From Arthonia radiata (lineage: Eukaryota; Ascomycota; Arthoniomycetes; Arthoniales; Arthoniaceae): 64,000 nt of DNA. A program made the translations under genes and the position numbers. Positions 8,854-61,078 of this stretch are shown here, piece after piece; positions within the stretch are counted from its first letter, which is position 1, and each line of letters begins with the position of its first letter. The DNA lies in assembly GCA_002989075.1 (NCBI GenBank), contig PSQN01000017.1, forward strand, positions 2,921,453 to 2,985,452, read 5' to 3'. The notes beneath the pieces are model-generated. The model worked only from the letters and a program-made list of their open reading frames with translations, was not told where the DNA came from and made no database searches.

Positions 8854-8856
8854 TCG

Positions 8857-12806: not shown

Positions 12807-12811
12807 CTAAT
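12807..12811 (+). repeat. Target site duplication of element B (left copy)
   Basis: CTAAT directly precedes the 5' LTR of B; the same five bases follow its 3' LTR at 19870-19874. Five bases is usual for Gypsy elements. Confidence 0.7.
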
Positions 12812-13285
12812 AGTATTACGAGCACCAGCCCTAGACGGCCTAGCGCACGTTTAAGCGTTAACTACTGCCAATTATCTTAGCTCTACCAGCATTATTCCCG
12901 ACTAAGCCTATAAACCTGCCGTAGGCATTATTAAACAAAACGGCTATAAGAGCCTATATTCCCTATAAACCCAATATAGGTATTATCGAGTTAGCGAACA
13001 TAAAGGAACTCTCTCTGTATACCTTAGACTATATAGCTAGACTAATAACTAACCTTAAGATAAACTTTAGTCTATTAACTTAATATTTGAATATAAGTTT
13101 CTTAACTCTATTTAGGTAACGTACTTTACCTTCTATCTATCTTAGTTAAGTCCCTCTTACCTTCTATAATCTATTTCGTCTCTCCTACCTTTTAGTCTCT
13201 AGTACACAAGACACCTACTACCAAGGTCGATAAGTATACAAGGTAAGTAAGCCTTAGTTCGGTTCTCCTAGCGACCGGCGTTACA
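12812..13285 (+). repeat. 5' LTR of element B (474 bp)
   Basis: It ends CGACCGGCGTTACA. It has the same length as the 3' copy; differences are mainly transitions. Confidence 0.88.
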
Positions 13286-19200: not shown

Positions 19201-19395
19201 AAGAAGGCATTTCGATACCGCAGGCTTCAATTAACAGGTATTAACTAAACTTTTTATTAGAACCCGTAGCAACGGACTTTATACGAGGCATAGCGACTTA
19301 CAGATTAGTTACAAAAAAGAAGGACGAAACGCAACTTATAGGTGTTTAAAAGGCTAAGGGTCAATCGAGAACAATTTAACTAGAAGAGGGGGGAT

Positions 19396-19869
19396 TGTAT
19401 TACGGACACCAGCTCCAGACGGCCTAGCGCACACCCAAGCATCAACCACCGCTAGTTATCTTAGCCCTACCAGTATTATTCTCGACTAAGCCTATAAACC
19501 CGCCGTAGGCATTATTGAACAAGACAGCTATAAAGGCCTACATTCTCTATAAACCCGATATAGGCATTATCGGGTTAACGAACACAAAGGAACTCTCCCT
19601 GTGTACCTTAGACTATATAGCTAGACTAATAGCCGACCTTAGGATAGACTTTAGTCTATTAACTTAACATCTGAATATAAGTTTCTTAACTATATTTAGG
19701 TAACGTACTTTACCTTTTATCTACTCTAGTCAAGCTCCTCTCACCTTCTATAATCTGTCTCGCCTCTCCTGCCTTTTAGTCTCTAGTACACAAGACACCT
19801 ACCACCAAGGTCGATAAGCATACAAGGCAAGTGAGCCTTAGTTCGGTCCTCCCAGCGACCGGCGTTATA
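19396..19869 (+). repeat. 3' LTR of element B (474 bp)
   Basis: It begins TGTATTACGGACACC directly after a purine-rich tract and ends GGCGTTATA, followed by CTAAT. Confidence 0.88.
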
Positions 19870-22800: not shown

Positions 22801-25350
22801 TGTCTTCTACTTATCTTCTTTACAAATACAGATACAGTAATAGGTATCACAAAGATTAAGCTTCGTAAATACCTTCGAGCCTTATAGACAATTAAGAATC
22901 TTAGAGACTAGCGGCAATGCGTAGCGATTCTTTATAGTTACATTGTTTAAACCGCGGTAGTTAACATATAGTCTCAACGATCCGTCTACCTTAAGCACAA
23001 ATAGAACTAAGACACCTGCTAAACTAATAGAGGGTTGTATCCACTCTTTCTTAATTATAGCATTTAGGTACTTTCGGAGCGTCTTTAGCTTATTCTACGA
23101 TATAGAGTAGATTAGCTTATACAGAGGTTCTATACTATCCTTAAGCTTAATCTTATAAGTATGCTTACTAAGCGGCGCAAGCTTACTCGACAGTTCTTTA
23201 GAAAAGATATCTTTATATTTAGTGTACTGAGGAGAAAGCTTATCTCACTTCTCTACTTTCTTAGGCTCGCTATTTAGAGTCTAGTCTAGCGGCAAACTAA
23301 CGTCTAATAGGACCGCTATTTAATACTTATAACGTCTATTCGCTTCTATCTATAGAATTGCGGAGTAGTACTGTTCGCCTCTTTATAAATATACTAAAAT
23401 TACGTCTTTATTAACAATCTTAATAGATTTAGCTTCTGCTACCCGTTCTTTAGGCGTAGAGAGGTTTTCCTAAGCAATTGTTCTTATCGCCCAGCTAATC
23501 TAAGGCTCAACTTGCTTAAGCTATAGGTATCCTAAGACGAGGCTATATTCTATAAAGTTAGTCGAATATAGATAGAGTTAGTAATACTGTTTCTCCTTAT
23601 ATACGTTTCTTACGGTTACGTTTACGTTATAAGCGTCGTAGAGCTACAGCTTATTTTTATTAAGAAACTTAGTATACAAGAGCTTTACTTTATATAATTT
23701 TTACTATCCTCTTTTAAGTATAATACAATAATTAATAAGGTTAATCTCTGTACTAGAATCTATCAGCGCGAGGACCTCTTACGGCGACCTGCCTAGCTGT
23801 ACCGAGACTTTAATTTGTCCTCGCTGTTAATTAACAGTCCTAAGCTTTAGAGACGCGAGGCTTATTCTCGGGGCCTATTGTTTCTCTGTCTAACTAGCGT
23901 CGAATTAACACCGGTTTAAAGTATAGTACATTTAGTAGTATAATGCCTTTTCTAATTGTATATAAAGTAGGTAATGTTTGCCTTACTGTATATCGACCCT
24001 AATTGCTCCTATGCAGCAGAGCTATTGTCTCTTTGTTGGACCGGTAAGTTGCCTCGTCCTCGGTATAAACTACCTTGTTTGCGGCTCGACCCCTGTAGAG
24101 ATGCTCTAGCGTTATAACCGCTATAGTTTGTACTCGATCCGCTACCGAAGCGATCTTAATTTATATTGGTATTGCGGGCGTCCTGCGATATACTACGATT
24201 AATATTTATATATTAATAAACTTTCTTTAGAAGCTTATTTATGTCTTTAAGTAGGTTTTTTAAGAGACTTTACTTAATTAGCTTCGCCTTAATCTATAAA
24301 GGTAAGCGCGTATAGTAAAATGCGGTCCGATTTAGGTCCGGTATCTTACTACCTAGCAACTTAGTTTCTTTATTCTGTAGAAAGCTTAGAAAGTCCTTAA
24401 GCTTCTACGTCGAACTCTACGTTAACGTAAAGAACTTTTCTGCGTTAGCTATAGTAGCTGTAGCTAGGTCGATAATATGTTTTATTACCTATCCTTTAAA
24501 GTACGCTTATACGTAGAGCGACGTCTTCTCTTTATTCTCTTCGGCGTAAGTTCGCTACCTATTTACTAGGTCTCTAGGGAGTTTCTAAACGTACTAGGTA
24601 ATAATACGAACGTTGTCGGGGTCCGACACATTAACTATCTAAAATCTTTCCTTAATAGTTTAAGTTTATTAAGTGCCTATAGAGTTTATAGCTCTCTTAA
24701 GCTTAGACGTCTCTTTCTTAAGGAGCTCGTTAATCTAGCTTTAAAGGCTTAAATTGCCCTGTAGCCGCTTGCTATCAGCTCTTAAATTGCAGATAGACTG
24801 GAGCTTAACTTTAAGCATTCGCTTTTCGAGCTTAAGCTTCTTAATAGTGTGCTGCTACTGCTATACTAGCAGTTCTTGTCTTAGCTTTCGTACCTTAACG
24901 CTTAAAGAGGCGCTAAAGAGGGATTCTTTGCGGTTAGAGCCTTAATAAGCCCCTTCGTCGTCGTTATTGTTTTGGTTTAGACTATCGTCCTTCTTAGTTT
25001 GCGATCTACTCGGCGTCTATTCGCTAGCTTATAAGCCCTCTTACTTATCGTCGTCGCTAGATCTTATATAAGGGTCCTAGTCTTCTTCGGCGTTGGCTAT
25101 ATTTTGCTACGCTCTATATTTTACTTGTGCGACGGATATAAAGCAACTACCGTCGCGTGCTTGGTTTCTTGCTCGTTCTCTTCGAATACGGTACTTGCTA
25201 GCACCGGCCATCAATTAATTTTAATATTATTTATTTTAACGTGTACGCGGAGTCTTAGCTATACTCGATTATACCGGATTGACCCCTAAGCGACGTTAAT
25301 AAGGTACCTTACTGCCGGCCGCCCCCCTCGTAGGTTTAAAATAATTAGGA
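19870..25350 (-). mobile_element. Main internal region of element A
   Basis: This is the gag-pol part of element A as laid out in its own entry. Short open frames such as 20707-20904 (integrase core) are remnants, not genes. It is TA-rich throughout, with local GC-rich islands. Confidence 0.75.
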
Positions 25351-25525
25351 TGTAATCTGAGTATAGGGCAGGGAGCAGTTAAATAGCAAAAAGGGCTCAA
25401 ATAGGCTCTACTAGTATTTAAGCTAATTATTAAGGAGACCAGAAAGGAATGCGTCTACTAGAGAGAAGATATCCTCCCAGGATCGCAGCCTTCCTAAATA
25501 GGCAACATTATATCCTAATTCGCTA
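25351..25525 (-). repeat. LTR of element A (right, 5' copy)
   Basis: It pairs with 8679-8853 and begins TGTAATCTGAGTATAGGGCA. It is more RIP-altered than the left copy. Confidence 0.85.
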
Positions 25526-26790
25526 TTGGGACGTTTATGCATTATATTAAAGTAGTATAGTTCTAAAGAAGGATTATGCTTATATATATACTAAATAAAG
25601 TTAGCTAGTAGTAATATTAAGCTTATAAACGCTACTAAATTCTTATTCTTTTAGAGGCTATATAAGACTCTATTTTTAGCTCTATTATAGTAGACGTCCT
25701 AGTTAAAAGCTTCTTTATCTTTTTATTAAAGGTAGTAGAGGCCCTTATTATAGCTACGTACACTATTATTCTAGATAGTACTAGCTATACTATAGTCTAT
25801 ACTAGCAAGCGTCTTAGTAAGTAGCTTTAATATAAAGAGATTGTCTATCTATACGATATAGTAATAGAAGCTGTTTATTTAGAAGCACTTAAGAAGAGTT
25901 AGGATAATTAACTATATTAATAAGAGCTTTATAGTAAATTTGGAATTAAGTTCTAGCGCCTCTACTTTGTTTATAGCTAAATAATATAGCTAATTAAAGA
26001 TATATTCTTCTATAGTAAGTAGCTAAACCTTAAAGCTAGTTAGTATAGGCTTATTCTTAAAAGTAATAGTATACTTAGAGCGGCCAGTTTAACGCTCTAT
26101 TACCTTATTAATTACTAGATAAGATCTAGAAGTAGTAAACTATTAGAATACTATCTATAGTTACTAAAAGAGAACCGCTATATAATTCTATAGTTTATAT
26201 TGCTAGCCGGGCTTAAGGTACTATACTTAGTAAAAGTAACTAAGCTACTAAAAGCGGTTATAGTCTATTATCTCTTTAACTAGCGTATACTACAATAACG
26301 GCTCTTACTCCTAGTAAGCCTTAATATATAACATATAGTAGATACCTATATATATCTAGATACTAACAAAAGCCTTTATTTTATTAATAGTAGTATTAAC
26401 CTAACTATAGGTAAATTTATACCTTTTTATTCTTTTACGCTTAGTATATCGATTAGTAGTATCTACTATCTTATACTAAGTATCTTCTCCTACTATTACT
26501 AGCTATATAGCTATAGGATCGCTAGTATTAATATAATCTAGGAGATACGCCTAGAAGTTAAACTCCTAGATTTTAAGTAGCGTAAAGTCGCTACTCTAGT
26601 ACAGCAATAGTAAGGGTAATTGCTTCTTATACTTCTTCTTAAGGGGTTCTAAAAGCTGTAAATCTAATGCTATATAAGTTAAATTAGTATTTAATCGTTT
26701 TAGTAGTATATACTTAGGTCGAAAGTTAGAGTAGCTTAGAGCTATTTGGGATTATGAGTCGGAAGCGCGGTGTCAGGATTAGGGTTAGAA
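25526..26790. other. Right arm of the inverted-repeat element, TA-rich
   Basis: This is strongly TA-rich sequence with stops in every frame. It is presumably the degraded interior of the outer DNA element, but no transposase signature is left that I can recognise. Composition returns to normal at about 26.75 kb, just before the repeat end. Confidence 0.45.
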
Positions 26791-27105: not shown

Positions 27106-28220
27106 TTAATCACCACTCCCACTCCCACTACGATGACGCCAATGTCTTGAGTGACCCGTAGATGTCGCAGCTGCAGTCACTGCAGGTGCCGTCGTCGCAG
27201 TCTCTTCGGGAAACACATCCGAAGCCTGCGATGGCACCGCGCCTCCGCTCTGCACCGGCGGCACTTCCCCTCCAGCCGGCAGCGGCGCCGCGCCGCCAAC
27301 CTGCGAAAACGCCTTCGCTACATCTCCTACCATGCCAAACTCTTGATAGCAGCAATCGCTCGTGAAGTACATCATTGCGATCCCGGCATCCTTTGCCTTC
27401 TGGACTGCACCCACCAGATCGGCGCCTGCGGGCACATCATGAATCACGATCGCGCTCTTCTCTGGTGGCTGCAATTTCAGCGGTGTCTGAGACGGGTTGT
27501 AGTCCGCCCACGCGTCCTCGGCATCGAGGATGTAGTCGGCGAAGTTGAAGTAGTTGGCAGGTGCGATGGTGCCAGGATTGAAGATGTGCGTGGAGGGCCC
27601 GTTCTTAAAGGCGCCGCGCGCGAGCTTAACGGCGTTGGACATGTAGTCGCTGGAAGTGGTGGAAGTGTCGTATGGCGCTTCGTCGTAGAAGATGCCGTCG
27701 AGTGCGGAGGTGCCCGTCCATGAGGCGTAGGAGGTAATGTTGTTGGTGAGCTGGTGCATCGTCAGTGTGAGCCCTTGAGATTTACCATTTTTCGCATCCT
27801 CGATCGAATGCTTGGTGAGGATCGGGAGAAAGTGGTATTTGGTTAACATACTGTATCATAGGACTCCGCGGCATAATTGGTGTGGACGTAACCCAGCGTA
27901 TGAACATTTGGGTTGCCGTTCAGGGTAGCTACAGCGTCGAGGTATTCGCTACCAGGGCCATCTGTCACGCGTTAGCCTGTGAAGCGTTTGTGACTTGGCA
28001 GAGTAAACTCGGAGAGTCAGGATAGTTACTCACCGGCACCCCCTGGCCCAGAGTCTGGGTTGACGATAACATAGTACTGCACATTCTTGTCGGACGCAAT
28101 AGCATCATACACCGGTTGCCACTTGCCTGGCAGCGGGTACGTGTACAGAGGCAGAAGCACGGAGATAGAGTGAACGGACTTTGCGCACGCCAGCGTGCTG
28201 AGAATGGTAGAGTATTTCAT
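27106..28220 (-). CDS. Spherulation-specific family 4 (spherulin 4-like) secreted protein
   Basis: Three exons, 28034-28220, 27852-27961 and 27106-27750, give 313 residues. The start MKYSTILSTLACAKSVHS looks like a signal peptide. The spherulin 4 domain follows: SVLLPLYTYPLPGKWQPVYD, YYVIVNPDSGPGGADGPGSE (restored by intron 1), HTLGYVHTNYA, and the acidic motif ALDGIFYDEAP, which resembles the active-site region of related glycosidase-like (beta/alpha)8 barrels. The C-terminal 70 residues are low complexity (Pro, Ser, Thr, Ala), a likely glycosylated or wall-linked tail; no hydrophobic GPI signal is seen. Introns are 72 and 101 bp with GTGAGT and GTATGT donors. The family is named for a Physarum encystment protein; its enzymatic role in fungi is not settled. 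Confidence 0.88.
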
Positions 28221-41720: not shown

Positions 41721-43934
41721 GCGGACGAACGCACTCCCCAACCGTAGACTAAACGCGGCTCAATACGCTCCTATAGTCAACAGAGAGCCGTTTGAGATAC
41801 CATTCCCAAGGTAGTGAAGGCCCTGCTTGGTATTCACCAGGACGAGAATAACTCGGACCGGTGACAACAGGTATTTACCACATCTGACACCGCCTCATGC
41901 ATGTTCTTGAACTCTATTTGGCCTGTTCACCGTCGGCGGGACGCTATCTCATATCTTTCCCATCAGGACTTGCAGAAGCTATGCTCGAGGCTAGTGGAAT
42001 AAGTTTCCGCATTGGAAGCCACATCTCCGGCGGATCTGGCTTTTCAGACCAAAGGTGCCATTCTCTATCACGCAATACGTACATAGGTCCTTAACGGCCT
42101 CATGCACTTTGATCTATTCCAGACTATGGTATCGATAATCTCGCAGCTCTCCTCTTCTTGCTCGGCACACCCTCATGGTGCGAAAGCGCACACTCAGAAT
42201 CAAAGCGCAGCCTGCACTCATTGCTCTAGAGCCTTAACGATAGGCTTGCTGGGACGAGGGTCTGCGCTAAGCTTCAACCATGCTTGCACAACACTACACA
42301 ATAATTGCATAGAACGATGAATACCATGCTCAGCTTTCACTGGACAGCCTAGACTTTCCTCTGGTCTGGTCTGGACTGAACTCGTTATCTGGGATCTCAA
42401 CCGATGAATAAGCCCAGGCACAGCTGGAAATGCCGAAGATGCCGATACAAACGTGCTCGATATTACCTTCTGATCGCATCACCGAAAGCTGACCCACCCA
42501 CTCGTACAACCTCCAATGTTGACAGCGAAGCTGTAACACAGCCTCATCAAACTGCCGACAACCGTGCTGTGCACCCTCAAGGCTTATTGCAGCCGCGCTC
42601 GTCGTTCGTGCACTTCCGGCGGATTGCCGCATAGCCGCGGAACTTTGGCGGATAACCGTCGAGCCTTCCACTTGCACTACGTTCAGTGACAATGAGGCAC
42701 ACCGTTTCACAAGCCAGCAGTGCCGTGTCGTTTTGGCAACTAGTCCTTGCTGACGTCCCTTAACGCTGGTGGAGCGTAGGAATCTGGAGTCAATGGCACC
42801 GCCTCAGCTTCCATCGCGAACAGGTTGTACAAGCGAGTTTGTGTGCACGATAGCTAGTAGACGCTGCGAACAAGCCCCCAGCAAGAATACACTCAATATC
42901 GACGGTCAGTCAAACCATCCAGTATCATTGTCATGCCCTTAGAATGCAGCAAAATTGCCAATCGCCATCTTTGCATTCTCGATATTATGTGTGTGTCGCC
43001 ATTGCCATCAAGCTCTGAAGTGACCCGGTGGGTCGAAAAGAGTTCTGAGCACCAGAGCTACTCCGTAATGAGAGGCTAGTGAATCCGCAAGCGTGGGACC
43101 GATGGCACGGGCCTTCCGTGGCGGCTTGGCCGGCGGGCTAGCCTTTTCGGGCCATCAGAGAATAGTGGAAAAAATCTTTTTACTTCCTTACTTCCCAGAC
43201 AGGCTGGCGAGTATCGAAGAGGAGCGACTCGCAGACTTTTCTGGCTCTTATAGAGCCATACACGAGCTCAGACCGAGTTCAGAGTCCTGGGCGTTTCCGG
43301 CTGCTAGAAGTTTCCCATCCGACCATCCAAGATCTGCCGGTCACCTTGAACAGCGCGTCTCAGCTCCCGAACGCCTATTTCTCGCGTAGAGTAGGATTCT
43401 GTTTCAGGATATCCAACCCCCTTGCAGTCTCTGGATGAGCAGAAGACTGTCTGCTCGACAAGTGTCTTCCTATGAGCACGGAGGCGGGTCTACCAAAAGA
43501 GTAACGCTACGTGCTTACAGTCCACTGGCTCCATTTGATGCCGATTCTGCGCAACACTCCTTCAAAAATGACACTGAACGCGAGGGTGTGCTAGCTTTCA
43601 CGCTCCATCCCGGACACCACACTCATATCGCTGACGAGCACAGTTGTCATGAATGGAAGTGAGACGATGCTGCACTTACGCCGTATGGACCTGCTTGATG
43701 CTTCACCTGATATGGCATTTGACTGTATCCAGCTTGCCTGATCATCTATAGTAGATCCATCGCTTTCCGGCTGGACTTCCTTATTCAGAGCAAGCGTAGA
43801 GCGCGTTTGCATCTCATTAGGCTCCCGGCACGTGCCCAGAAAATTGCACACGCTCAATCTTCACCCTTTCCTCTCATTGCATCTCGGTTATTTCGCTCTA
43901 ATGCTGTCATCGACTTCAAATCAACAGAAGGGTC
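41721..43934. other. Long stretch without a recognisable gene
   Basis: About 2.2 kb. Several open frames of 60-126 codons occur on both strands (for example 42330-42710 minus, 43093-43389 plus), but none has a domain, plausible composition or matching splice structure. Base composition is normal, with no RIP-type TA enrichment. Confidence 0.4.
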
Positions 43935-45883
43935 ATGGCCTCAGAAGTTGATGCTCGCGACACGCAAGGAGCAGCGACAGCGCTCAAGAATCTCGACCTG
44001 GAGGCAAAAGACTACTGCGCGCCTTGCGCCAACACCACAACTGCGAAACATGACCGAACAGTCAACTGTCCTAACGACGGTACTCAAGTCTGCGGAAAGT
44101 GTAAGCTTGTTGCAGTGAGTCTAGCGTCATACCTATGTAACATTCACTTACACAAACACAGTATTGCTCTCTGAAATGTCAGAAAAACCACGAGCAACCT
44201 CACAAAGCCGACTGCAAAGCTCCACAAGCGCAACAGACATGGGTCCCGGCATGGGTCCGCGAAGGGCGGAAGCCAAAATTTGACGATGCAAAGAGTTTTT
44301 TAGGCCCAGGTTGGGAGAAGTCTCTGAATGACACTTGGGCTAATGTCCCTGCTGTTGATGTGCTAAACCTGACGGGCAACGAAGGCGCCGGTTGTGACTT
44401 AAATCTGGCGGTGTGCTTTGCTGGTGTGTCACTGCTTTGTTTCAGGCTTCTGAACTATCTATAGCTAACGTCCGACTCCAGCTCCCAACAGCTTCGCAAA
44501 CATGGTTAAAACGATCAAGGAGCTCCCCAGTGCCTTTAAGGGTCAACCCACCATCACCTTCAGCTCAAGCGACATGTACGCAGTAACCCGAAACTTTATC
44601 ACTCTCATGTTCCTCATTAAAATCGACAATGCTGCAGCCGCAGCGGACGCGGTGATGCACCTCCAATACTCAACTCGCATCAAACCGGTGCACAGATCCT
44701 ATCTCGAACGGTTTGTCTTCAGCGCTTTGAACGACGTGGTGAAGAAGACCAAAAACAAGCCTGCCGATGTACTGCAGGTCAAGTCTTTCCAAATGAGCCA
44801 TGGTACTCTGCGCGTCGCGCTTTGGAAGGCGCAATGGCAGAAAATGCAAGCGATCGTCAAGAAAGTGTGCGAGCCGGAGACTGCGGATGCGTCTCGACGA
44901 GCGACGACCATGGGTAACCAGGACCGCATCGATCGCGAGTTGTACCTCACACGGGTTCAATTGCATCGTAGGGTCAGTAAGCTCAAGTTCCGCGAGAGCG
45001 GAGTGCTCTTGGAGCATGGTGCGTCGCAGGACGACTTCAATGTCGTCAATCCGTACGTGGTCTAAAGCTGCTGCCTACCGGGATTTACTGACATCAATCC
45101 AGAACCATGTTTGACAGCAAGGGTCGTTATCTGCTATCAGACGGCTTCGAACCGCTCAAAGACTGGCATCCCCAAGATGTTGAAGACCATTACTATAAGA
45201 GCGGCGGGCACCTACCCGAAAACGATCTATACGGCCAGCTTAAGTCCTACTTGCTCAACGTCATTACCACCGCGCATCAAAAGCTGCGCCAACACAAGGT
45301 CACCTGCACCATATACGGTGTCGACCTAAAGAGCATACACACCGTCCTGCCCACCGTGCGCTTCGACCGCATCGACGTCTCGCACGCCGTCGACAACACG
45401 CATCTGGGCACCGGACCAGTCCTGAAAGCAACGCGCCCACTGCTCAACACCGCCAATCCTCATGCCACGGTCGTTGCGCTCTACCTCTCCGCGTTAGAGG
45501 AAGTCGAAACCTACAAGCGACTGCAGTGGCGTCCCGACGGAAGCCCAGATACACCGTTGGTCATATACCTACGTATTACCAAAGCAACTGGAAAAGACGA
45601 TGAGCAACTGATGCTATACAATCTCGGGAAGCGCATGTACGCGCCTGTGGACAAGTGGTTTGGAGAGTATCTCGAGACGAATCGATATAAGATTGGAGAT
45701 GTTGCGCAGAAGGAGGGAATGAGCATGAGGGAACACAATACGGTCGTTGCGAGGAATCCGCTGCGCTTGCGGAAAGGCTGGCAGTTGGGTGGCCAGGAGG
45801 AGTTCGATTTGATGTTTGCGGCTGGCCTTTCGGGGTTTGAGACGTATGTTGAATCGGTGCTGGATGACAAGGCCCGCGATTGA
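43935..45883 (+). CDS. MYND zinc-finger/DUF4470 protein, copy 1
   Basis: Four exons, 43935-44114, 44162-44423, 44482-45052 and 45103-45883, give 597 residues. A MYND finger is split by intron 1: CAPCANTT, then CGKCKLVA joined to YCSLKCQKNHEQPHKADC, with all Cys/His ligands present. DUF4470 follows (VDVLNLTGNEGAGCDLNLAV, then ANMVKTIKELPSAFKGQPTI). The C-terminal half (about 350 residues) has no domain I know but is shared with copy 2. MYND fingers bind proline-rich peptides; the role of this family is unknown, probably nuclear or cytosolic. In DUF4470 the usual NDRD element is replaced here by SSSDMY. Intron positions and phases match copy 2 exactly. Confidence 0.88.
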
Positions 45884-46196
45884 GAAGGCTGTCATCCTTG
45901 ACGAGAACGCGCAGCGTCTCGGCGAGACGTCTGCTTCAATCTTCTCCACGACCGGGTTTGACAAAGGCTGGACTCTAAGATCTGAACTGGTCCTATCGCT
46001 TCGACTGAATGCATGTAGCCGAGACTCCAGGCACCAATGCGGCATGCAGAAGCGACGTTTGCTTTCTGTTTGCTTCGCGTTTGCCTTCGGTTTATCACCT
46101 GCGTTTGCCAGAGGCTGAAAATTCCGACACCCCTCTGGACTCTTCTCCAGAACCCATCTTCTCTTGCACACAATCACTACTCTTCCTGAACTCAAG
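45884..46196. promoter_or_regulatory. Spacer between the tandem MYND genes
   Basis: 313 bp between the stop of copy 1 and the ATG of copy 2; it must hold the copy 2 promoter. No other structure is seen. Confidence 0.4.
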
Positions 46197-48125
46197 ATGG
46201 AGAGCTCACAAGACGCAGATGCCGTGGCATATATGATGACTGAAATGCAGTTGCACAACCGTGTCATTGCGCCATGCGCAAATACAACCGCCAGCTCAGG
46301 CGACAACAAGGCCAACTGCCCCAGCAAAGCCACTAAGATCTGCGGTAGATGTAAGCTTGTAGCAGTGAGTCAAGTCCTCAAAGGTCGACAGACTCTGCTG
46401 ATGAGGTGATAGTACTGTTCAAGCGACTGCCAAGCACAACACTGGGCAACGCACAAAGCAGACTGCAATGCACCTGTCACCAAAGCCGACTGGGTGCCTC
46501 GTTGGGCCCAGCAGCATCGTGGCCCGGACTTTGTTGTCGAAAGCGGGCCTCGTGTTGCCACGCACGGTGGAACGATAAAGGGATATCTCTGGGGAAATGT
46601 TCCAGCCTTGGATATCCTCAATCTCGAGCAGAACGAGGGTTCAGATTATCAGAGCGACTTGTCCCTCTGCTTCGCCGGTAAGCTTTTCGCTGCCGCACGA
46701 GCATCACGTTTGCTTATTTTTGCTAGCTTCTGGAAATCTTCGCAACCTGCTTGCGACGATCTTCAACTTACCATCTACCTATATCGGCCAACTGTCAGTC
46801 ACTCTCAACGACCGAGATGTCCGCATCGTTCTGCTGAACTTGACAATACTGTTGCTATTCGCCATGGAAGAGATTGAGGCCGCCGTCGACGCTGTCCTTC
46901 ACTTTTGGTATTCAGCACGGGTAAAGGAGTCACATACACTCTTGATGGAGAGGTACGTTCAACAGATCATTGATGACGTGGTGCCGAAGATCCAAAACAA
47001 GCGCAACGATCTCGTTCAGGCCAAAACTGTTCACATCGGATCTACCCGCGTGCGCATTGCCTTGGTCAAGAGTCAATGGATTGAAATGCAAAGCATATTA
47101 GCCCGGAAATACGAACTCGAGACCGCTGAGAAAAGCCGAAGGGCCACCGTTCTGCACAGAGAAGACCATCTCGACCGCAATCTCTTCGAGATGAGGAGAG
47201 ATACTCATCGAAGGCTTGGCAAGATTAGATATCGCGAGCGCGGTGTATTATTGCCGTTTGGAGACTCAGACTCTCAATATACTGATGTCAACCCGTGAGT
47301 GTCAATTCCTACCCTCTTTGCCCACGTACGCTAATCTCTGAGAGCAGAATGCTGGTGAACACTGACGGTGAGTGGATGCAAAAAGACTCCGCCGACCCGC
47401 TTCAAGGCTGGACACTGCGCGATCTGGAGGCATTCAGCAAAACTCAGAGCGATCAGTCCACTCTTTCAAATGATCTCTACGGTCAACTGGGCTTCTATCT
47501 CATGCACAAGCTCTCCAGACTCCACAAGCGCATGCGCAATCAGCGCCTTCACATCACTCTCCATTGTCTCGACGCTAAGGTCTTGAACACCTATGTCGAA
47601 CATGGCCAGATGGACAGGATCGAGGTGTCCAACATAGTCGACGGAGGATGGCTGGGTGCGCCGACAACGCTCAGAATTATGCGGCCGTTGCTGCGCGAGA
47701 GGAACAGACACGCGACGATCATCGGCTTGTTCATCAATGCGCTTCAAGAAATGGAGCATAGACATGAAGCGGACCGGGGCATAATTGCTTCCTCGATCTC
47801 GAGCAGTCTGCCGTTCCTCCAGCTCGATCCAGCGTCGGCGTCTCACAAAGACCGCCATAACCCGGAGTTCCGGCGCATGACATTCGCGAAACACATCTTT
47901 GCGCCCTTGGACCGCTGGTGGCTAGAGTACATGCAGCTCGTGCGGCTGGAACAGAACACCAGGAAAGAGGGAATGAAGATGAAGAACACGCACACGATCG
48001 TCGACAAGTGGTCATTCCGCTTGTTCAAGAAGTATGGAGAGCCCGGCGCGCAGGAGGCGTATGACTACTTGCTTGCGTCCGACGTTGCTGGATGCGAGCG
48101 GTACGTGGAGTGGGTTCGCGCATGA
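46197..48125 (+). CDS. MYND zinc-finger/DUF4470 protein, copy 2
   Basis: Four exons, 46197-46364, 46413-46677, 46727-47294 and 47348-48125, give 592 residues. The MYND finger is CANTTASSGDNKANC, CGRCKLVA, YCSSDCQAQHWATHKADC. DUF4470 is closer to the family consensus than copy 1: LDILNLEQNEGSDYQSDLSL, then LRNLLATIFNLPSTYIGQLS and VTLNDRDVRIVLLNLTILLL. The C-terminal region has DLYGQLGFYLMHKL, as in DLYGQLKSYLLN of copy 1. Introns fall at the same places and phases as in copy 1, showing tandem duplication followed by strong divergence. Function unknown. Confidence 0.88.
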
Positions 48126-51635: not shown

Positions 51636-52039
51636 CCTCACCGTTCAGGTTCGACTTTCCAGGAAGACTATCCAGCACCTACTCCCGGTGAGTACCCGTG
51701 GGCTTCACGAGCGCAAAGCCCGTGGCTAATAGCGTCATACCAGACTTCGACAACATGCCCGGCGGCAACTGGCTCGCCAAACTGATGGAACTGTCAAAGT
51801 ACCATCAGGGCCAGCAGGAAGAGCATTTCGACGCGGCACAGCGGGGCGATCAAGCAGCTTACGACAAATATGACCATCACGTTAAAAGACAAAAGGACCT
51901 GGACACTGAACAACTTAACATGGAGCAGGACCCAAATTACGCGAAGAAGAGAGAGGCCGAGTGGGGAAACGCCAACAAGGGAGGCGCTTCGGACCATATG
52001 AAGATGAAGTGGTATCGCTTGGGTAAAAAGACTTACTAG
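51636..52039 (+). CDS. Short-protein family, member 1 (5' exon unresolved)
   Basis: Unrecognised. The second exon is 51744-52039. It joins an upstream exon ending at 51687 across a 56-bp intron (GTGAGT donor, GCTAAT branch, CAG acceptor), which creates YPAPTPDFDNMPGG, matching the PT-x(1-3)-[DE]F signature in the first exons of the three genes at 58.2-61.1 kb. The frame is open upstream only to 51636 without an ATG, so a further 5' exon or a start at the internal ATG 51755 is needed. The rest is charged and soluble, with EEHFDAAQRGDQAAYDKYDH and an ending ASDHMKMKWYRLGKKTY that recalls the HM-x-x-RK ending of the others. No signal peptide, no cysteine. It is the most divergent member. Confidence 0.5.
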
Positions 52040-52444
52040 ATTGCTCATCAGGGAGCAAGAGTAAGCAGCCAAGTAGAGAGCAAACGAGCCAGTATACTTC
52101 TACTGTGGTCGGCAAGAGAGATTAGCGCGGTGAGAGATTGTAAAGGAACAACACACTCGTCACATCCATTGCATGTCAACAAGTGGGTCTTCATGCCTTG
52201 CTTTGCAATGATGCGCTTCAGAGACAACACCTGTATGAACGACGCTGGCGCTAGTCAAACGACGCAGCATTGTGTAAGTCGTTGTTGGAGCTTGAACGCA
52301 TGTTGAACGCATGAGGGAAGACGTATATGCCTCGGTAGTGGGTACTATCATGCCCTCTCTCGTCCTGGGTATTGACGAGACCGATCAATTGCAATGGTAA
52401 GCTCATTTTCTAGGCTCTCATCAAGCTATATTTGATAACGCAAA
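52040..52444. other. Convergent intergenic spacer
   Basis: No gene is seen between member 1 of the short-protein family and the stop of the CoA ligase gene. Confidence 0.4.
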
Positions 52445-54389
52445 CTATAGCTTGGCCTTCGCCGGCGCCTCATCGCGATACAGCGCAATCTCCACACCCT
52501 TTGCATCTTTGAGGAATCGCCGCAGGATTTTTCCGGACGGCGACTTCGGGATCTGCGGCACGAACACAACGCCGCCGCTCAGCCACTTATACCTTGCTAA
52601 GCGCTGCTCTGTCCACTGCTTGACGTGCTGTGCCAGGTCAAGCAAGCCTGCAGATGCAAGCTCGTTCATCCCGCCTTCAACGCCGCGGATGGCTTGCGCA
52701 GCGAGTCCGGTGTTTGATGGTACAAGATATGCGCGAGGGTATTCGGACTGTGTCTCGTCATCCCAGATGGAAGTCACGCCGGCGTCTGAGATCTCTGGCG
52801 AGCCCATGAGAATGGCGTCTAGATCAACGGGTGAGACTTGGAAGCTGCCCGATGTCAGAATTCTTCGACGGAGATTCGTCCAGGACAGATCCGATAAGAC
52901 CTACCCTTTGACCTTGATCATCTCCTTCACACGATCTGTGATCCACAGCGACCCCGTCTCATCAATCTTGCCAATATCACCAGTATGATACCAGCCCTCG
53001 CCATCCAACACCTCACCCGTCGCTTTCCAATTATTCAAGTACCCAATAAAAACACCCGGAGACCTGCAATCAATCAGCAATCCCTCTCTCCACAACCACA
53101 TTCACCAAAACTGACCTCACACATATCTCACCCTCCTCCCCCACCTTCACCACCCGCCCCGGCTCCTGCACATTAACAACCTTCATCTCATTTCCCCTCT
53201 CAGGGACCCCCGTATCCCCCAAATGCGCCTTCAACTCCCCCCACCCCCGCGCACTCTGGTACGCCACACACCCCGCCTCACTAATCCCATACCCCATCAA
53301 CACCATCACGCCCAACCGCCGCCACACCATCTCAATCACCTCCTTCCCCAGCGGCGCCGCCCCACTCATCACGCACCGCACACTCCTCAAATCCCTTCCC
53401 TCCACCATCGGGCTCTTCGCCAGCAGCAATGCAACCGGCGGCGCTGTGTGCACCGCTGTGATCTGCTCCCGCTCGATCGTGTCTAACATCACGCCTGCAT
53501 CAAACCGCGGCATCACGAACACCGTCGCGCCACACGCCGGCGCCATCATAGCCACGACCGCGAACCCGAAAATGTGGTAGAACGGCGCGAAGCCCAGCCA
53601 CCGCTCATGGGAGGTGAAGTGCGGCGCCATGTTCCACATGACGAGGGTGTTGCGGACGACGTTCTGATGCGAGAGGCAGACGCCTTTGGACTTACCGGTC
53701 GTGCCGGAGGACCAGACGATGAGGGCTGTGTGGTGGGTGAAGGTGTGGGTGGTGAGGAGGGTGGCGCGAAAGGTGGAGGGGATGGGTTTGTGGAGGGTTG
53801 AGAGGGGTTGCGTGGAAGGTGGTGTAGGGGAGGTGGGGTCGTGGATGAAGATGCGGTTATTGGTGCTTAGTCCGGAGGCGAGCGCGGTGTCGGGCATGAG
53901 TTTTAAAGCTTCGGCGATGGTTTCATAGCCGGATGTTGTTGTGATGATGGCGGCGGGGTGTGAGAGCGAGAGCATGTGCTCGAGCTCCGTGGGCGTGAGG
54001 ACGGGGTTGACGAGGCAGGCGGTGTTGCCGCTGGCGAATATGGCGAGGATGATGGAGATGTAGTCGATGGAGTTGGGGAGATGGACGAAGACGACGGGGG
54101 ACACGGTGGGATATGGTCCCTTGTCCGAAGAGAGCAGCTCGCGGAGGCCGACTGCTAGGCTTGACGCATCGTCGTGGATGCGCTGCCATGTTATCGACGC
54201 GCCTGTGAGGGCGTCAACGAAGATTGGCGTAGAGTTCGGAACGGGCGGGACGCTATGATCTCGTTGCTGCTGCGTCGGTGCATCTCTAAGATATCTGGAG
54301 TCCTTCAAGAATGGCTGTGAGAAGGTGAAGTCAAATGCGTTAATCGGAGGTATGGGTTTCGGGGTCGAGCCGGTGATGGCGAGCGACAT
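52445..54389 (-). CDS. AMP-dependent acyl/aryl-CoA ligase (4-coumarate-CoA ligase-like), probably peroxisomal
   Basis: Three exons, 53116-54389, 52905-53063 and 52445-52844, give 610 residues; both introns (52 and 60 bp) restore conserved text (ICVRSPGVFIGYLNN and IKVKGFQVSPVDLD). It is an ANL-superfamily enzyme that makes an acyl-AMP and then the CoA thioester. Motifs: IVWSSGTTGKSKGVCLSHQN (P-loop), MGYGISEAG, GWYHTGDIGKIDETGSLWIT and the C-terminal catalytic lysine region PKSPSGKILRRFL. The protein ends AKL, a variant type 1 peroxisomal signal, pointing to peroxisomal activation of an aromatic or medium-chain acid. The substrate cannot be told. Confidence 0.93.
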
Positions 54390-55357
54390 GCTTGTTAGTG
54401 AATCCGTACGTACGCCAGTAAAAGACTAAGAGTAATCGCCTCGGGGTCACTGGTCAATCTCGAATCGATGAACGTTGTGGAGAGCAGTACCGAATCTCTC
54501 GTCAGCTCGTCTGGACAGGTCAGAGGGGATAGTAATCACCTCCCGTTCTCAGGTGAAGCAAATGCAGAATGTTGTGTTCCGCGAACCGCCCCAATCGAGG
54601 TGAATGTGGTCTTCAGCGCGGTGTTTGCGTCAACCAAGCTAACAGAGCGAATGAACGTCTGGACGAGGGTACGTATTGTGAGGTTGGAGGATGTCCGGTG
54701 GATTTGCAGGTGTAGGTTGACAAGGTGGACTCACTGCGCAAGGACGTGTCAGTCGCGTGGCTTACTGCTCGGGACGCACAGAGAGATGGGGCTACGGAAA
54801 GCTATCTCAGTCAGGCAGTTGTGGAGGTAGCGGGTGACTAGGGGGCGCAACGTGTTCCGTGGACCAAGGCAACATTATCCCATATTCATCTCGAAGCATC
54901 GCTTTCATACGCACGTTCTTATACGCACGTTAGGACGATGTTGATTCTGAGACAGCCCAGTGATGAAGATTCGTGGATGGGAACGGTCACGCTGTGGAAT
55001 TGCCGAGCAGAAATGCCGAAAATGGAAGGTAATGAGCTTTGTTTGGCCTACTACCAACCCCTAACCCGCCATTCTTTTGTGCACCTGAGACTGGATTAAC
55101 CACAACGATCCCCAAGTATCTCAACCTTGAGACAGTCGTGAGCTTCGTGAAAGACGTTGGTTCAAACGCTAGTAAGTGTGGTCGACAACTCCTTGTCCTA
55201 ACGCGGGCGCATTCCGTTTGTCAAAACACTACCGTTACCGTCCATGACGAGCTTTGAAACCCTCTGTGGCACCGGACTAAGATATGCAGCCCGAAGACTA
55301 TCATGTCTGGAAGCCAGCTCTGACTTTCACATCGTAACAGACTCTGCAGGGAGATGT
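54390..55357. other. Intergenic, no gene recognised
   Basis: Promoter of the CoA ligase gene on the left and 3' flank of the M48 peptidase on the right. Confidence 0.4.
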
Positions 55358-56421
55358 CTACAGATTATCGTCAAGCGCCGGTGAGCTGGGATGCTGTTCA
55401 CGTTTATCCTTCCATATCTCAATCGCCTTGGGCAGAACTCTGTTCAGAGCTTGCACTCTCAATGCCATCGATGGGTGGCTGGAACTGTTTCCGCGGTGGA
55501 CGAAAGGCATGTCCGGGCGCTCGTCCAGATTTTGCAGTTGGTCGCGTGCTAACCAGGGTCTGATCCCGGCTCGTGCAAGTATCATCGTCGCCATAGAATC
55601 AGCTTCATACTCGTGCCGATGCATCAGAGGCATGGATAGTATTTTTTCACACCATGTCTGATTCAGCCATTTCAATGTCCTGTACAGTAGCCATGTCCGC
55701 GGTACAAGGATGCTAAGTTCGTCAAGCGCAAGATGGAATCTGTCCCGTTCGTGCCCATGTCGAGCCAATATGTGGCCCAGTTCGTGCGCCAAAGTTGCAG
55801 GTAGAGTTGCGCCCATAAGATCACATTGGAACGCAACCGAAGATACCGTTATCCCAGCTTCAGTCTTCGGGCGTTCTGAAGTCGGCTCAGTCCATCCACT
55901 GGCTGCAACTGGCCTATATTGAAGATTAGCCGCGCGGTACATCATAGCATCAGGGCCATTCCAGGATCTTGTAGTGAGCAGTATTTTCGAACACCACAGA
56001 TGGAATGATGAAGGACAGGATATCCTGCTTACCGATCATCCTTTGTAAGACATATGTGAAGGCGTGGCACCGCCGGTAAGCCCAGAGATTCCAGCATGTA
56101 TACGACAAGCCCAAAAGCAATCGCATTCTGCTCATCGTTCAGATCTGACCCAGAGATGCTTACAGGTACGTCCGGGTTGGCGCCGCTACCTAGGGCCTGC
56201 AAAAGGTCTGGGCCCCATGAGGTCCCAATGTCTTTGACAACGACCTTCCTCCGCCTCCCAGCCACAGGACTGGTGTGTATTTCGCTGATGCTGCCGACCG
56301 AATAACAGCAGTATACACCCCAAAGTCGGAGTATGTCAGCGAGTTTCGCAATGAAAGTGCGCCCGCTGCATCCAATGTGTACGAAACGCCACCATTGGGG
56401 TAGCAGCTGATCCCAAGTCAT
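55358..56421 (-). CDS. Peptidase M48 family zinc metallopeptidase, copy 1
   Basis: Two exons, 56033-56421 and 55358-55967, joined by a 65-bp intron (GTAAGC donor), give 332 residues if the ATG at 56421 is used. The zinc motif HELGH is at about residue 191 (TLPATLAHELGHILARHGHE), followed by a hydrophobic stretch and the third-ligand motif HEYEADSMATMILARAG, then SSSHPSMALRVQALNRVL. This is the layout of M48 (Oma1/Ste24-like) metallopeptidases; Oma1-type members act at the mitochondrial inner membrane. The same frame continues upstream to 56883 apart from one TGA, described separately, so the true N-terminus is uncertain. Confidence 0.82.
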
Positions 56422-56883
56422 AGTATGATACTCTTGCAATAGCGCCTGCAACCTATCCACGTTGCTAGGCCATTCATGCCACTTCACCCTCCTGGAGCTT
56501 TTACGATGCTTGGATGGTCTCGGATGGCCGGGAAATACCGCGTTCAGTTCTGGGCGATCTCTCGCAGCATCTGATTGAGGATCTACCTTTCATTGTAGCG
56601 ACCATCCGCTTTTGAGCAGCTTCCACCTTGGCCCGCGCATTGAGGACATATGTTCGCGAGCGGAGTAACAGCATGACCTTTCATCGGTAACTTCTCGTCC
56701 GTGCGACGCGAATAAGCCTGTGGCGTGGCTGGACGTCAACAGCCAATTCGTCGCACCATGCACGGAATAGAAGATCGAGACTGCGCGAAGAGGTGACAGC
56801 TGTGGCAACTCGCAACACACGCTGGCTATACGCTTCAAAAACGAACGAAAGGCGAGATTCGCTTCAAGGCTCGTATGGAGCAC
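56422..56883 (-). pseudogene. Probable N-terminal extension of the M48 peptidase, interrupted by one in-frame TGA
   Basis: The frame of the M48 exon runs upstream through PELNAVFPGHPRPSKHRK to a TGA at 56590-56592, and beyond that stays open to an ATG at 56883 (MLHTSLEANLAFRSFLKRIA, basic and hydrophobic, presequence-like). Either the gene carries a premature stop, or an intron that I could not place removes the TGA, or the upstream part is chance. A working fungal Oma1-like peptidase would normally have such an N-terminal targeting region, which favours one of the first two. Confidence 0.4.
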
Positions 56884-58244
56884 GTTTTCTCAGCAAATAC
56901 GGGGACTGACTACTAATACAGTACTCCGAATCGTTGGTTACACAAGGCAAGAATGTCATGCCGATCTTCAGAACGGCCGTACGCCGCTGTTTAGACGCTA
57001 ACCGCCTTTCTTGTGCACGAAAAGGCAAGGACTAAGAGAACGCCGTTTAGAAGAATATGCTTTCGTCAGCTCCATTTGTGGTTTTATCCTTCTCCTTCGT
57101 CTATTCTCAGCAACCTCCGTTGAGCTGTTGAGGATATATGCACTGACGGCGATAACTGAGCAGCCCGCCGTCTGCATCAAGATGGACTGCCATCCGGACT
57201 AATCAGCAGAGCGCGTATTTTGGAGCAACAATTTCCTGGTGTTAGGCCGAATGAGCTGGGCCAGCTATGCGCAATCGATATGATCATCTGCAAGGTAGAG
57301 CAATCCTACGTGACTACAAGTCTTGTTGCGTAGACAAAATCACAAGCAGATAAGCCGGCAAACACTGTGGCAATTGCAGAAAGATGTCGAGAGCGATGCT
57401 CAGCGTCCTAATGCGCATCGTATCTTACCTCCTTCATATCGACAAACCACGGAACCACCCATGTCGCACCACAAGACTCCATTGTTAGTCCATCACTCAA
57501 TCAAGAAGCTCTGCATCGAAGGAAGATCATGCCTCTGCATGGTCAATGTCGCAACGCAAAGACAGCTCCGGCTTCGTCGAACTCCACACACGACGGTTTG
57601 TACACTATTGCAAAAGGGCCATCACCGCAAGGATCGCAGTCTTGGCGGGCTAGTCATCGCAAGCTTCGCTCAATCTGGCAATCGTCAAAAATCAGCGCCT
57701 TGGCAAGCCAGCGGGTCGCGTAAACAACCCTCACCTCGGGCCACCTCTTCTTCGCAACAACAGCAAGAATCGAGCTGGAATGCTCCCCAAAAGCGGTTCG
57801 AAAATAGTTTGTATCGTCGACAAAGGTGATTCAACGGTATGGCTACCAGTACTCACATGGCCGCGTTACCTTTATGCGCCTCACTGGTTTGTCCACCTCT
57901 TTTCTACCTTCCACTACCAACCAGTGGTGACCTTCTCGTCCGTAGTTGACGACGACGTAGCCGTCACTTGCCGGACACACGCGAGATAATCACACCTGTC
58001 TGTTTCACTAGGCTTGCGAATTAGCCTTAGCGCTGACTTCTCGCTCAATGATGTATTGGTACTCCATGGAAGGAATCGTGCACAGACAAAAGCTACCAGT
58101 CTTCCTCGCGAATATCTACCTGGCCATGCCTGAGCTCACAAGTGAGATGTGTCCCCTCTCTAGCATAAAGACAACACATGCCTTCTTCACGGTTGCCTGT
58201 TGGTAATCATCTAGCTGGATTAGATTTTCGTCAGAACCTACAAT
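56884..58244. other. Intergenic, no gene recognised
   Basis: A plus-strand open frame of 168 codons at 57323-57829 is rich in Gln, Arg, Ser and His with no domain or supporting splice structure; I leave it out as a gene. Confidence 0.35.
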
Positions 58245-58635
58245 ATGCCGCGTCGTGACGCTGAAGAGAAGCCGCAGCCAGTCGGTCAGCATGCTGATCC
58301 CACCCCAAAGGACTTTAGGACAGGACCGTATGTGAGTGGGTTGAGTTCCCAAGAAAGACAAGTAGGTCAACCTTCACAGCACTCAGTTGGCCAGCGATCT
58401 AATCCGGCAGGAATATCATGAAGAAAGCTATGATAAAATGGGTGGAAGAGAATTCGCCAATCACGCTCACAAAGAGCATCCGTGGTATTCCGCCTGGTTT
58501 GTCAACAACAAAGCCATGGAGTTCATTCTCAACGAGCGGCAACACGATCCACGCGCAGAGTTGAATCCAAACGACGGAGGCCACATGACTTATCGCAAGC
58601 ATCGCTTTGTCAAGTTTTTACATCATGAGGATTAA
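58245..58635 (+). CDS. Short-protein family, member 2
   Basis: Unrecognised family. Exons 58245-58361 and 58411-58635 with a 49-bp intron (GTAGGT donor, CTAAT branch) give 113 residues. The first exon contains ADPTPKDFRTGP; the second starts EYHEESYDKMGGREFANHAH and ends ERQHDPRAELNPNDGGHMTY followed by RKHRFVKFLHHED. The protein is hydrophilic, His- and charge-rich, with no Cys, signal peptide or membrane segment, so it is likely cytosolic or nuclear. Another donor at 58332 would shorten exon 1 by ten codons in frame; the longer exon fits the spacing in the other members better. Next to it, on the opposite strand, is the broken M48 copy. Confidence 0.68.
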
Positions 58636-58732
58636 ATGAGGCTCGAGTCCATGATCTGTTCGTGGTCAAAGCTTTATAAGACGCAGACTGTGCCTCTGTT
58701 CATGCCAGTCGCTCTGCCAAGCTTGGACGCCT

Positions 58733-59044
58733 CTATGACTGCTTCAAGTTGTCGCGCAGATGCTCCAACCGATAGAGGAGCGAACCGTGGTAGCTTTGTT
58801 CATCTGCCTGGGCCTGTAGATATCGCTCCATGGCCCGTGGGTCCAGCCCTCTCTCACGGAGCACAAAAGCGCCTGCAACATCTGCTTCGCACGCTTGATC
58901 ACATTTGACAAACCGATGCTGCCCGTCAACGAGGTAGTAGAGTATACCAAGCCATTCGTAGACAGGAAATGGCGCCAACAGACTGCAGACACCGAGAAAG
59001 TATCGCCGTTCCTCAAAGGCATGCAGGGCGAATCCGTGCCCCAT
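58733..59044 (-). pseudogene. Fragment of a second M48 metallopeptidase
   Basis: An open frame of 103 codons resembles the C-terminal part of the M48 gene at 55.4 kb: GHGFALHAFEERR lines up with the end of the HELGH helix, then a hydrophobic stretch, CDQACEADVAGAFVLRERGL (compare HEYEADSMATMILARAG) and LYRLEHLRDNL (compare ALRVQALNRVL). The HE pair of the zinc motif is absent: a stop lies two codons before the first ATG and no upstream exon is evident. The third-ligand region starts with Cys rather than His. It is therefore most likely a decayed duplicate, though a spliced, catalytically dead protein cannot be excluded. It lies between members 2 and 3 of the short-protein family. Confidence 0.5.
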
Positions 59045-59408
59045 CCCTTATCTGATAGGATTTCTCAAGACCTCTTCGCTTAGTGCGAGGTCGTCATCTG
59101 CCAAATCTGAGGTCGGCAGGCTTGCAGACAGGCGCTAGCGGTCAGCCCGCCAAGCAGACAGTGTCAGATGCACATTGAGGACAGCCATGCTGAGCTTTCT
59201 TTGAAAGGCCACTTGTAAGGTCCAGCTCTAACACTCAAGTGATAAAGCCTTGTGTAAGACAGGATACATGTCGTCTGAGGAAGACGTCAAAGATCCTCCC
59301 CAAACTCCTTCGTTGTAAAAGCAACCTGTATTAATTTTGTCATTCCATCGAAATACGCTTTTCACCGCACACCCGAGGATAGAACACTGGCAGTACGATA
59401 TTCATACC

Positions 59409-59817
59409 ATGCCAGCAAAGGAAACAAGTAAACAGGAACCAGGAGAACACGTCGAACCAACCGACGCAGACTTCGAAGAAGGCATCCCAGCAGACCGTCT
59501 GCGAGACACGCACAGATCGAAGGTCAGTTTCCTGGACTGAGCTCTTTGCAATACGGATCGCTAATGTTTTGGAAGTACCACAGGGATAACTGGCAAAACA
59601 ATGGGGCACGCAGCTCGCCCGGCGTGCGCATGGGCTTCGCTTTCATCTTTCTCCCAGATATGTGAACAAACGCGTTATGCAATGGTTGCATATAGAACAG
59701 AGAAGAGACCCGGATAATACATATAACCCCAAGAACGTGGCGCAGATGGGACATCGCAAGAGGGAGTTTGAGGGATGGCTCGAGCGCAAGCATCACCCTG
59801 ATCAGTATGAGAGATGA
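59409..59817 (+). pseudogene. Short-protein family, member 3, with a probable one-base frameshift
   Basis: Exon 1 (59409-59522, 38 codons) has GEHVEPTDADFEEGIP, nearly the same as member 4. After a 53-bp intron (GTCAGT donor, CTAAT branch) exon 2 starts at 59576 with YHRDNWQNNGAR, matching YHEESYDKMGGR of member 2. The match then continues in another frame: LARRAHGLRFHLSPRYVNKR aligns without gaps to member 2, followed by VMQWLHIEQRRDPDNTYNPK and QMGHRKREFEGWLE to a stop at 59817. One base appears to be missing near 59611-59616. Use of an AG near 59617 as acceptor would keep the frame but drop about 14 residues. It is either a recent pseudogene, a sequencing slip, or a shortened protein. Confidence 0.6.
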
Positions 59818-60696
59818 TGCACCGCAGGCTTAGCTTATGATGTTGAGTGTGTGCAGAATGAACCAAGGTTAGGTCTCACACGCGCATTATGGTAAAGTCA
59901 CGCGATTTCTGTCCATACTCCATGGCAACGTGTTGTCATACTGCATAAGCTTCGTTGCGTCGCGTCCGTCTCCCAGGTTAATCAGTATAGCTCTTGATCC
60001 TAGTCGGACTATGCCGGAGGAACAAGTGCTGCCAGTTAGTCATCGTATTAGCAAGTCCTCAGGTGGACGTGTCAGATGAAGTCAGAATTTGGCAAGCGCA
60101 TGTTGGATCTGACGCCCGCACAGACAACTAACTCCACTAGCGGCTGCGCATGTCTCTTGTTGAAGCCGTTGGTGATCGACAGTTCATGATTGCGGTCATG
60201 CGGCCTGAACACTTGGCCCCGAGTATGCTCGAGACAGGTGGCGTGGTGGACTAGAGCTCGCGATCAGCCAGTCAAGAGGACGATGTCCGCCTGTGGTATG
60301 AAACTGCGAAACTGCGAACGGCCAAAACGACCAATACCAACCTGACACCTAGTAGCTAGGAACGAAGCCAGAGTATACACGCAAGAGAGGCGGTCGTCAC
60401 CATCTGTTTCAATTCTTCCAATGCACAGGGTCAGCTGACAGCTAATGATTTTTCCTGCAGCGCTGAATGGCGTAGTCAAGGGACTCGAGACTGCGAGAAG
60501 GCACCAGCATCTAGTCGTCCCTGCACACTAGCTGAAACCTCGAGACCAAGACCAGGACTGCTCATTTATGTCACCAACAATGCTGGACACGTTGTCTTTC
60601 GAACCGCATAAATGACGCAGGAACCGGTCTTCAGCGTTCATCCAACCCCACTATACACCCAGGTATCATCGAGTGTTAATACTACCGACACCTTCA
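59818..60696. other. Intergenic, no gene recognised
   Basis: I searched by eye for a third M48 fragment on the minus strand here and found none. Confidence 0.35.
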
Positions 60697-61078
60697 ATGA
60701 AGCTAGAGAAAGAGAAACCCAACGAACACAGGGAGCCGACTGACGACGAGTTCGGGAAAGGTCCACAAGAGCCCTTGAACTATAGGACAGCCCAAGTAAG
60801 ATGGACGCCACACCCAAGTTTCTGACCGACACAGGTTGACACACATCTAGGAGTGTAACAAGGAGCTATGGAAAGAGCATGGTGGCTTAGTTTTCGCCAA
60901 ATACGGCCATAACCTCGAGGAACACTTTTCGGCGACACGCATGAATCGTCTCGTGATGCGAATGCTGCACAAGGAGCAGAAGGATGATCCCTCCCTGGCT
61001 TATGACCCGAAAGATAACGACCATATGAACCACCGAAAAAAGCGTCTTTTGAAAAACATTGTGTCCGAGAGCGGATGA
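60697..61078 (+). CDS. Short-protein family, member 4
   Basis: Unrecognised family. Exons 60697-60795 and 60851-61078 with a 55-bp intron (GTAAGA donor, TTGAC branch, TAG acceptor) give 108 residues. Exon 1 is MKLEKEKPNEHREPTDDEFG then KGPQEPLNYRTAQ; exon 2 starts ECNKELWKEHGGLVFAKYGH and has VMRMLHKEQKDDPSLAYDPK and DHMNHRKKRLLKN. The intron falls in the same place and phase 0 as in members 2 and 3. Soluble and strongly charged, with no targeting signal. The frame is intact, so this and member 2 are the best representatives of the family. Confidence 0.7.

Follow-up and report, generated by a model that had tools for sequence, protein, structure and literature searches.

We analyzed a 64-kb stretch of Arthonia radiata contig PSQN01000017.1 (hereafter, the window; G+C content, 47.9%), in which a first-pass annotation had proposed an unrecognized family of four genes for short proteins, located at 51.6, 58.2, 59.4 and 60.7 kb and called here members 1, 2, 3 and 4, respectively. 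Sequence comparisons indicate that members 2, 3 and 4 very probably constitute one paralogous family, whereas member 1 does not belong with them. The true cluster spans positions 58245 to 61078, about 2.8 kb, and comprises three genes on the same strand. Our overall reading, to which we give an even chance of holding, is that these three tandem paralogs code for small, soluble, intracellular proteins composed of a tail and a three-helix domain, with a binding or adaptor role.

The exon-2 products of members 2 to 4 are about one-third identical. Full-length Smith-Waterman alignments of the three pairs scored 113, 138 and 136 (z scores of 13.6, 19.2 and 19.2), and none of 1000 shuffles reached the score of any pair. 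Those alignments were made with an earlier splice model of member 2; that model, or a profile built from it, was also used for the profile search of the window, the codon tests, the pattern test and the NCBIfam scan, and the exon-level shuffles and the Pfam scan were rerun with the revised model described below. With the latter, 0 of 5000 shuffles reached the score of each exon-2 pair, and the scores of the exon-1 pairs 2-3, 2-4 and 3-4 were reached by 0, 4 and 0 of 5000. An all-against-all BLASTP comparison of the stop-to-stop open reading frames (ORFs) of at least 30 amino acids in the window also recovered the three exon-2 pairs, with expectation values (E) of 1.9e-8, 2e-5 and 1.3e-10. In the exon-2 core, 13 of 64 columns are identical in the three members, whereas no more than 5 were identical in any of 200,000 triples picked at random from 312 segments of the window. 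One of these columns is the Gly preceding the open acceptor of member 3, which leaves 12 in the spliced product.

The exon-2 pattern that had been noticed in members 2 to 4 was confirmed. In its strict form, E[QR]xxDP-x(3-6)-P-x(3-6)-MxxRK, it was found in exactly these three among the 1911 window ORFs of at least 20 amino acids and was absent from all 200 shuffled sets. The PT-x(1-3)-[DE]F signature reported for exon 1 is present but weak when taken alone: four ORFs contain it, including one with no relation to the family, where 1.8 would be expected on average under the null. Searching the 1911 ORFs with a family profile yielded no further member, the best other ORF having an E of 4.2.

The inclusion of member 1, an open frame at 51692 to 52039 on the forward (+) strand, did not withstand pairwise, profile or exon-1 tests. 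Its scores with members 2, 3 and 4 were reached by 522, 50 and 485 of 1000 shuffles, respectively, and the alignment with member 3, the best of those, is out of register. It obtained 0.4 bits against the family profile, a score equaled or bettered by 1515 of 1998 scored shuffles, and its exon-1 piece gave scores with members 2, 3 and 4 that 1572, 1106 and 3223 of 5000 shuffles reached. A window search with member 1 as the query likewise led us to reject the link. Its APTPDF motif requires a phase-1 splice, unlike the phase 0 of members 2 to 4, and its intron also differs from theirs in place; no in-frame ATG was found between 51500 and its proposed donor. It is very doubtful that the family takes in all four genes, with member 1 as its more remote branch, even though a loose pattern, E[QR]-x(0-3)-DP-x(5-30)-Mxx[RK], matches the ORFs of members 1 to 4 and no others (mean of 0.1 and maximum of 2 under the null), the comparison with member 3 is fairly high among its shuffles and the frame looks like coding sequence. 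The loose pattern was chosen after the fact and carries little weight. The codon use of the frame is the most coding-like of the exons tested, only 0.8% of 397 null segments being as high, and for that reason we regard it as probably a separate, unrelated gene with its 5′ exon elsewhere. It had no Pfam or NCBIfam match.

We then examined the structure of members 2 to 4, all of whose splice sites are sequence-based predictions. Exon 1 of member 2 (58245 to 58361, + strand; 39 codons, with DPTPKDF) was delimited by homology with the first exons of members 3 and 4 and by a revised donor, GTAGGT, at 58362. It is followed by a proposed 49-nucleotide phase-0 intron with a CTAAT branch-like site (58362 to 58410) and by exon 2, which includes the stop codon and encodes the three-helix domain (58411 to 58635; from homology and an AlphaFold2 model). 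Our first models of this gene, with a donor at 58332 and exon 2 starting at 58387 or 58411, gave way to a donor at 58362 and an acceptor at 58410 because exon 2 then falls in exact register with that of member 4. In member 4, also on the + strand, exon 1 (60697 to 60795; 33 codons, with EPTDDEF; from homology) precedes a proposed 55-nucleotide phase-0 intron with a CTGAC branch-like site (60796 to 60850; from predicted splice sites) and exon 2 with its stop codon (60851 to 61078; from homology and an AlphaFold2 model). Exon 2 begins 15 residues before an invariant Ala in both genes, with EYHEES in member 2 and ECNKEL in member 4, and exon 1 extends 15 and 14 residues, respectively, beyond the [DE]F of the signature.

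Member 3 (+ strand) departs from this arrangement. Its exon 1 (59409 to 59522; 38 codons, with EPTDADF) was assigned by homology, and its exon 2 with the stop codon (59614 to 59817) by homology and the profile search. The acceptor nearest to the family position, at 59583 after a CTAAT, lies 11 rather than 15 residues before the Ala and leads into an in-frame GGA TAA stop. An open frame is obtained only via the CAG ending at 59613, 30 bases further and at the cost of ten codons; if the gene works, its intron would be the 91 nucleotides from 59523 to 59613, this being the only open splice model. It may be that the acceptor has moved or that this copy is decaying. The annotation had described a phase-0 intron at the same place and a conserved spacing in all three genes. 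A predicted phase-0 GT..AG intron fits the frame in each, with exact register between members 2 and 4 only, the usable acceptor of member 3 being 30 nucleotides past the best-placed one. Similarly, the distance between the Phe of the signature and the invariant Ala is kept in members 2 and 4 (30 and 29 residues) but not in member 3 (17 residues in its open model). With the revised models, the proteins are 113, 105 and 108 residues long for members 2, 3 and 4, instead of the 108 to 118 residues given before.

Codon-level comparisons argue that these frames have been maintained as proteins. Pooled over the three pairs, nucleotide identity at codon positions 1, 2 and 3 was 130, 134 and 63 of 234, so that third positions are identical at about the chance level; the 78 codon columns used all lie outside the stretch changed by the revised member 2 model, and the alignment was built on protein, which favors positions 1 and 2 somewhat, although the homology itself lies well outside the range of the shuffles. 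The proportions of nonsynonymous and synonymous differences between members were 0.43 to 0.47 and 0.85 to 0.93, respectively. As positions 1 and 2 are conserved with position 3 at chance, the protein has been preserved through the randomization of its silent sites. Judged by these comparisons, members 2 to 4 are old duplicates under purifying selection, in agreement with the first-pass view that the duplication is not recent. The accompanying description of the proteins as fast diverging was not borne out, since the pattern is one of protein conserved over DNA and the saturation of synonymous sites allows no rate to be assigned.

Codon use was positive in frame for every exon of members 2 to 4, with varying strength; null segments were as high in 1% and 4% of cases for the two exons of member 4 and in 8% for exon 2 of member 2. 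This test used the earlier member 2 boundaries and a null that may include coding segments, and one of its 13 training stretches (27200 to 27855), about 5% of the 4514 codons, was in a frame with four stops. The weak codon bias of some exons, together with the stop codon into which the best-placed acceptor of member 3 runs, would fit frames that are chance or decayed sequence rather than genes. We consider this extremely unlikely, given the homology at codon positions 1 and 2 with position 3 saturated and exon-2 frames that are open in all three members.

The proteins themselves are highly charged, with 40 to 45% charged or His residues and a grand average of hydropathy of -1.4 to -1.6. No hydrophobic segment was found in members 2, 3 and 4, whose highest 15-residue Kyte-Doolittle means are 0.41, -0.47 and 0.03, respectively. 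The earlier statement that they lack targeting signals is in line with this, as far as hydropathy alone can tell, and the proteins are probably soluble and intracellular. They had also been described as free of Cys, but a single Cys is present among the three, in member 4. The annotation further suggested roles in conflict, self/non-self recognition or stress. A tandem array of small proteins with low identity and possible decay of one copy could be expected of fast-evolving proteins of conflict, self/non-self recognition or host interaction, and, according to a Zymoseptoria study (PMC4502367), such roles are frequently attributed to the orphan genes of fungi that infect plants, mostly when the products are secreted. 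By hydropathy, members 2 to 4 have no N-terminal hydrophobic signal segment like that of a secreted effector, and the single Cys in three proteins, the conservation of protein over DNA (although saturation hides any rate), the ordinary repeat-induced point mutation (RIP) indices of the array (0.66 and 1.28) and the presence of only short, two-copy repeats also make such a role very improbable. No result obtained here favors conflict, self-recognition or stress over other roles.

Structure prediction, which the first-pass annotation had proposed as a check, was run with AlphaFold2 on exon 2 and gave a three-helix domain. With member 2 first and the three window sequences as input, helices were predicted at residues 4-9/12-22, 28-45 and 56-73, with a predicted local distance difference test score (pLDDT) of 84.7 and a predicted template modeling (TM) score of 0.74. 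In the models, most of the conserved residues (A, H, S, N, M, E, DP, P, M and RK) would sit on helices 2 and 3 or in the DP...P loop that connects these two helices. Each protein would consist of a charged, probably flexible N-terminal tail carrying a [DE]PTxx[DE]F linear motif, followed by the compact three-helix domain, with one partner bound through the tail motif and a second through the domain. Old tandem duplication, in which copies were born and died, would have produced the array, and member 3 is perhaps in decay.

That a helix bundle was predicted at this pLDDT from just three sequences, and that no catalytic family in Pfam or NCBIfam scored above its cutoff for members 2 to 4, are consistent with such proteins. 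Several observations weigh on the other side. With member 4 first, AlphaFold2 placed the helices at 4-22, 28-45 and 56-74 with a pLDDT of only 71.3 and a predicted TM score of 0.52. The splice sites are predicted ones. Codon use is only mildly coding-like in exon 1 of member 2 (17% of null segments as high) and in the exons of member 3 (15% and 24%), and one antisense frame of member 2 exon 2 has a codon score of 0.116, versus 0.117 in frame. Finally, the binding or adaptor role is drawn from size, charge and predicted fold. In view of composition, predicted fold and the absence of an enzyme signature, non-enzymatic binding or adaptor proteins are the leading proposal, a tentative one somewhat short of probable. 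The more specific proposal of an undescribed fungal small-protein domain, a [DE]PTxx[DE]F docking tail with a three-helix bundle that has no close solved fold and spread in tandem and whose copies have different binding partners, is possible but rather unlikely.

The note that no known domain fits was upheld for these three members in the libraries searched (Pfam, NCBIfam and PDB). Matches were called at the curated cutoff for Pfam and NCBIfam and at an E below 0.001 for PDB sequences. Pfam gave no match above cutoff for members 2 to 4, including the revised member 2. A stretch of 54 to 65 residues of member 2 aligned with PF10694 (DUF2500) at an E of 0.0065 to 0.014 and 16.3 to 17.4 bits, versus a cutoff of 33.5; members 3 and 4 had no such match, and we took the likeness as chance. 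Member 4 matched PF21649 at 12.3 bits, below the cutoff of 27. None of the four proteins matched NCBIfam. No PDB sequence was matched at an E below 1, the best value for member 4 being 1.3, and the family profiles matched none. Foldseek found nothing significant in the PDB, with best E values of 6.9 for the model with member 2 first and 1.8 for that with member 4 first, nor among viral proteins with the latter model (best E, 1.3).

In GTDB genome contigs, two scans returned 45 and 280 pattern matches, and in IMG/VR contigs two scans returned 144 each, none of which was confirmed; a plasmid search with member 4 exon 2 as the query revealed no relative at an E of up to 0.1. Those empty results were expected because the query is a fungal gene. 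As these are the wrong collections for such a gene, "unrecognized" means not present in the libraries searched. No account of the family was found in literature listings and abstract openings, to which neither its sequence nor a name could be put as a query. Alternatively, the three genes could be a diverged branch, missed by Pfam profiles, of a fungal family that is already described or annotated and has an ordinary housekeeping function, which is possible but rather unlikely: the libraries searched did not cover fungal proteomes, only three sequences were at hand to build from, and for domains of 75 residues sequence searches of Pfam and PDB have little power. The lack of any match above curated cutoffs and of any significant PDB fold match for the three-helix domain speaks against it.

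Other features of the window were also recorded. A Pfam scan located a fungal rhodopsin domain at 49.2 to 49.7 kb and DUF2011 at 61.6 to 62.5 kb; Rfam (50 to 64 kb, gathering scores) and tRNA scans gave no matches. The 54.4- to 61.6-kb region has four short two-copy direct matches, one short inverted pair and no other repeats, and hence no duplicated DNA block is visible at the cluster. An AT-rich block at about 8.7 to 26 kb (8700 to 26000) contains pieces related to each other in an inverted arrangement. It has strong RIP indices (TpA/ApT, 1.74; [CpA+TpG]/[ApC+GpT], 0.50), and two of its four scanned pieces contain reverse transcriptase or RNase H domains. The block looks like decayed retrotransposon-like copies, for which the domain names suggest a Ty3/gypsy label. 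The small-protein cluster lies outside it. The source would be a fungus of a RIP-bearing group, the Pezizomycotina.

Two tandem genes at 43902 to 45883 and 46119 to 48125 (+ strand) have DUF4470 above the Pfam cutoff and MYND-like fingers below it, and their matching parts are 31 to 42% alike. An M48 peptidase gene is located at 55358 to 56035. Between members 2 and 3, at 58733 to 59044 on the reverse (-) strand, lies a broken M48 peptidase-like fragment that is not a family member (Pfam, 12.2 bits versus a cutoff of 20.3). It is 24% identical to the M48 gene (E of 0.002), a match that did not appear at an E of 0.01 in the all-against-all BLASTP comparison, and its assignment as an M48 relative is weak. 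The fragment looks like a pseudogene, as an in-frame stop and a Gly stand directly before MGH, at the expected H and E of HExxH. Given the duplicated MYND-like/DUF4470 genes and this possible M48 relative, this stretch may be generally prone to duplication followed by divergence, which would then not be peculiar to the small proteins.

What the cluster yields is a set of splice models, a profile seed, a testable fold and one copy perhaps caught in decay. It is an ordinary kind of tandem family and by itself opens no long-standing question. Among known systems, LYR-type three-helix proteins of respiratory complex I are small and helical like members 2 to 4, and we considered them because complex I chains were among the Foldseek matches (5xtb_E is presumably an LYR subunit). 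Those matches were not significant (E of 7.8 and 9.9; TM scores of 0.35 and 0.37 to the query), and no LYR tripeptide occurs in the sequences of members 2 to 4. A parallel may also be found in orphan genes, which form a sizeable and unexplained part of the genome in some fungi. According to PMC4502367, Zymoseptoria tritici has 1798 of them (15.1%), 95.5% without an assigned function, and 15 families of duplicated species-specific genes occur in four Zymoseptoria species. The Zymoseptoria orphan paralog families resemble members 2 to 4 in being duplicated, in having no known function and in residing in a genome with RIP-mutated transposons. Unlike the species-specific duplicates reported there, members 2 to 4 are too diverged for a recent duplication.

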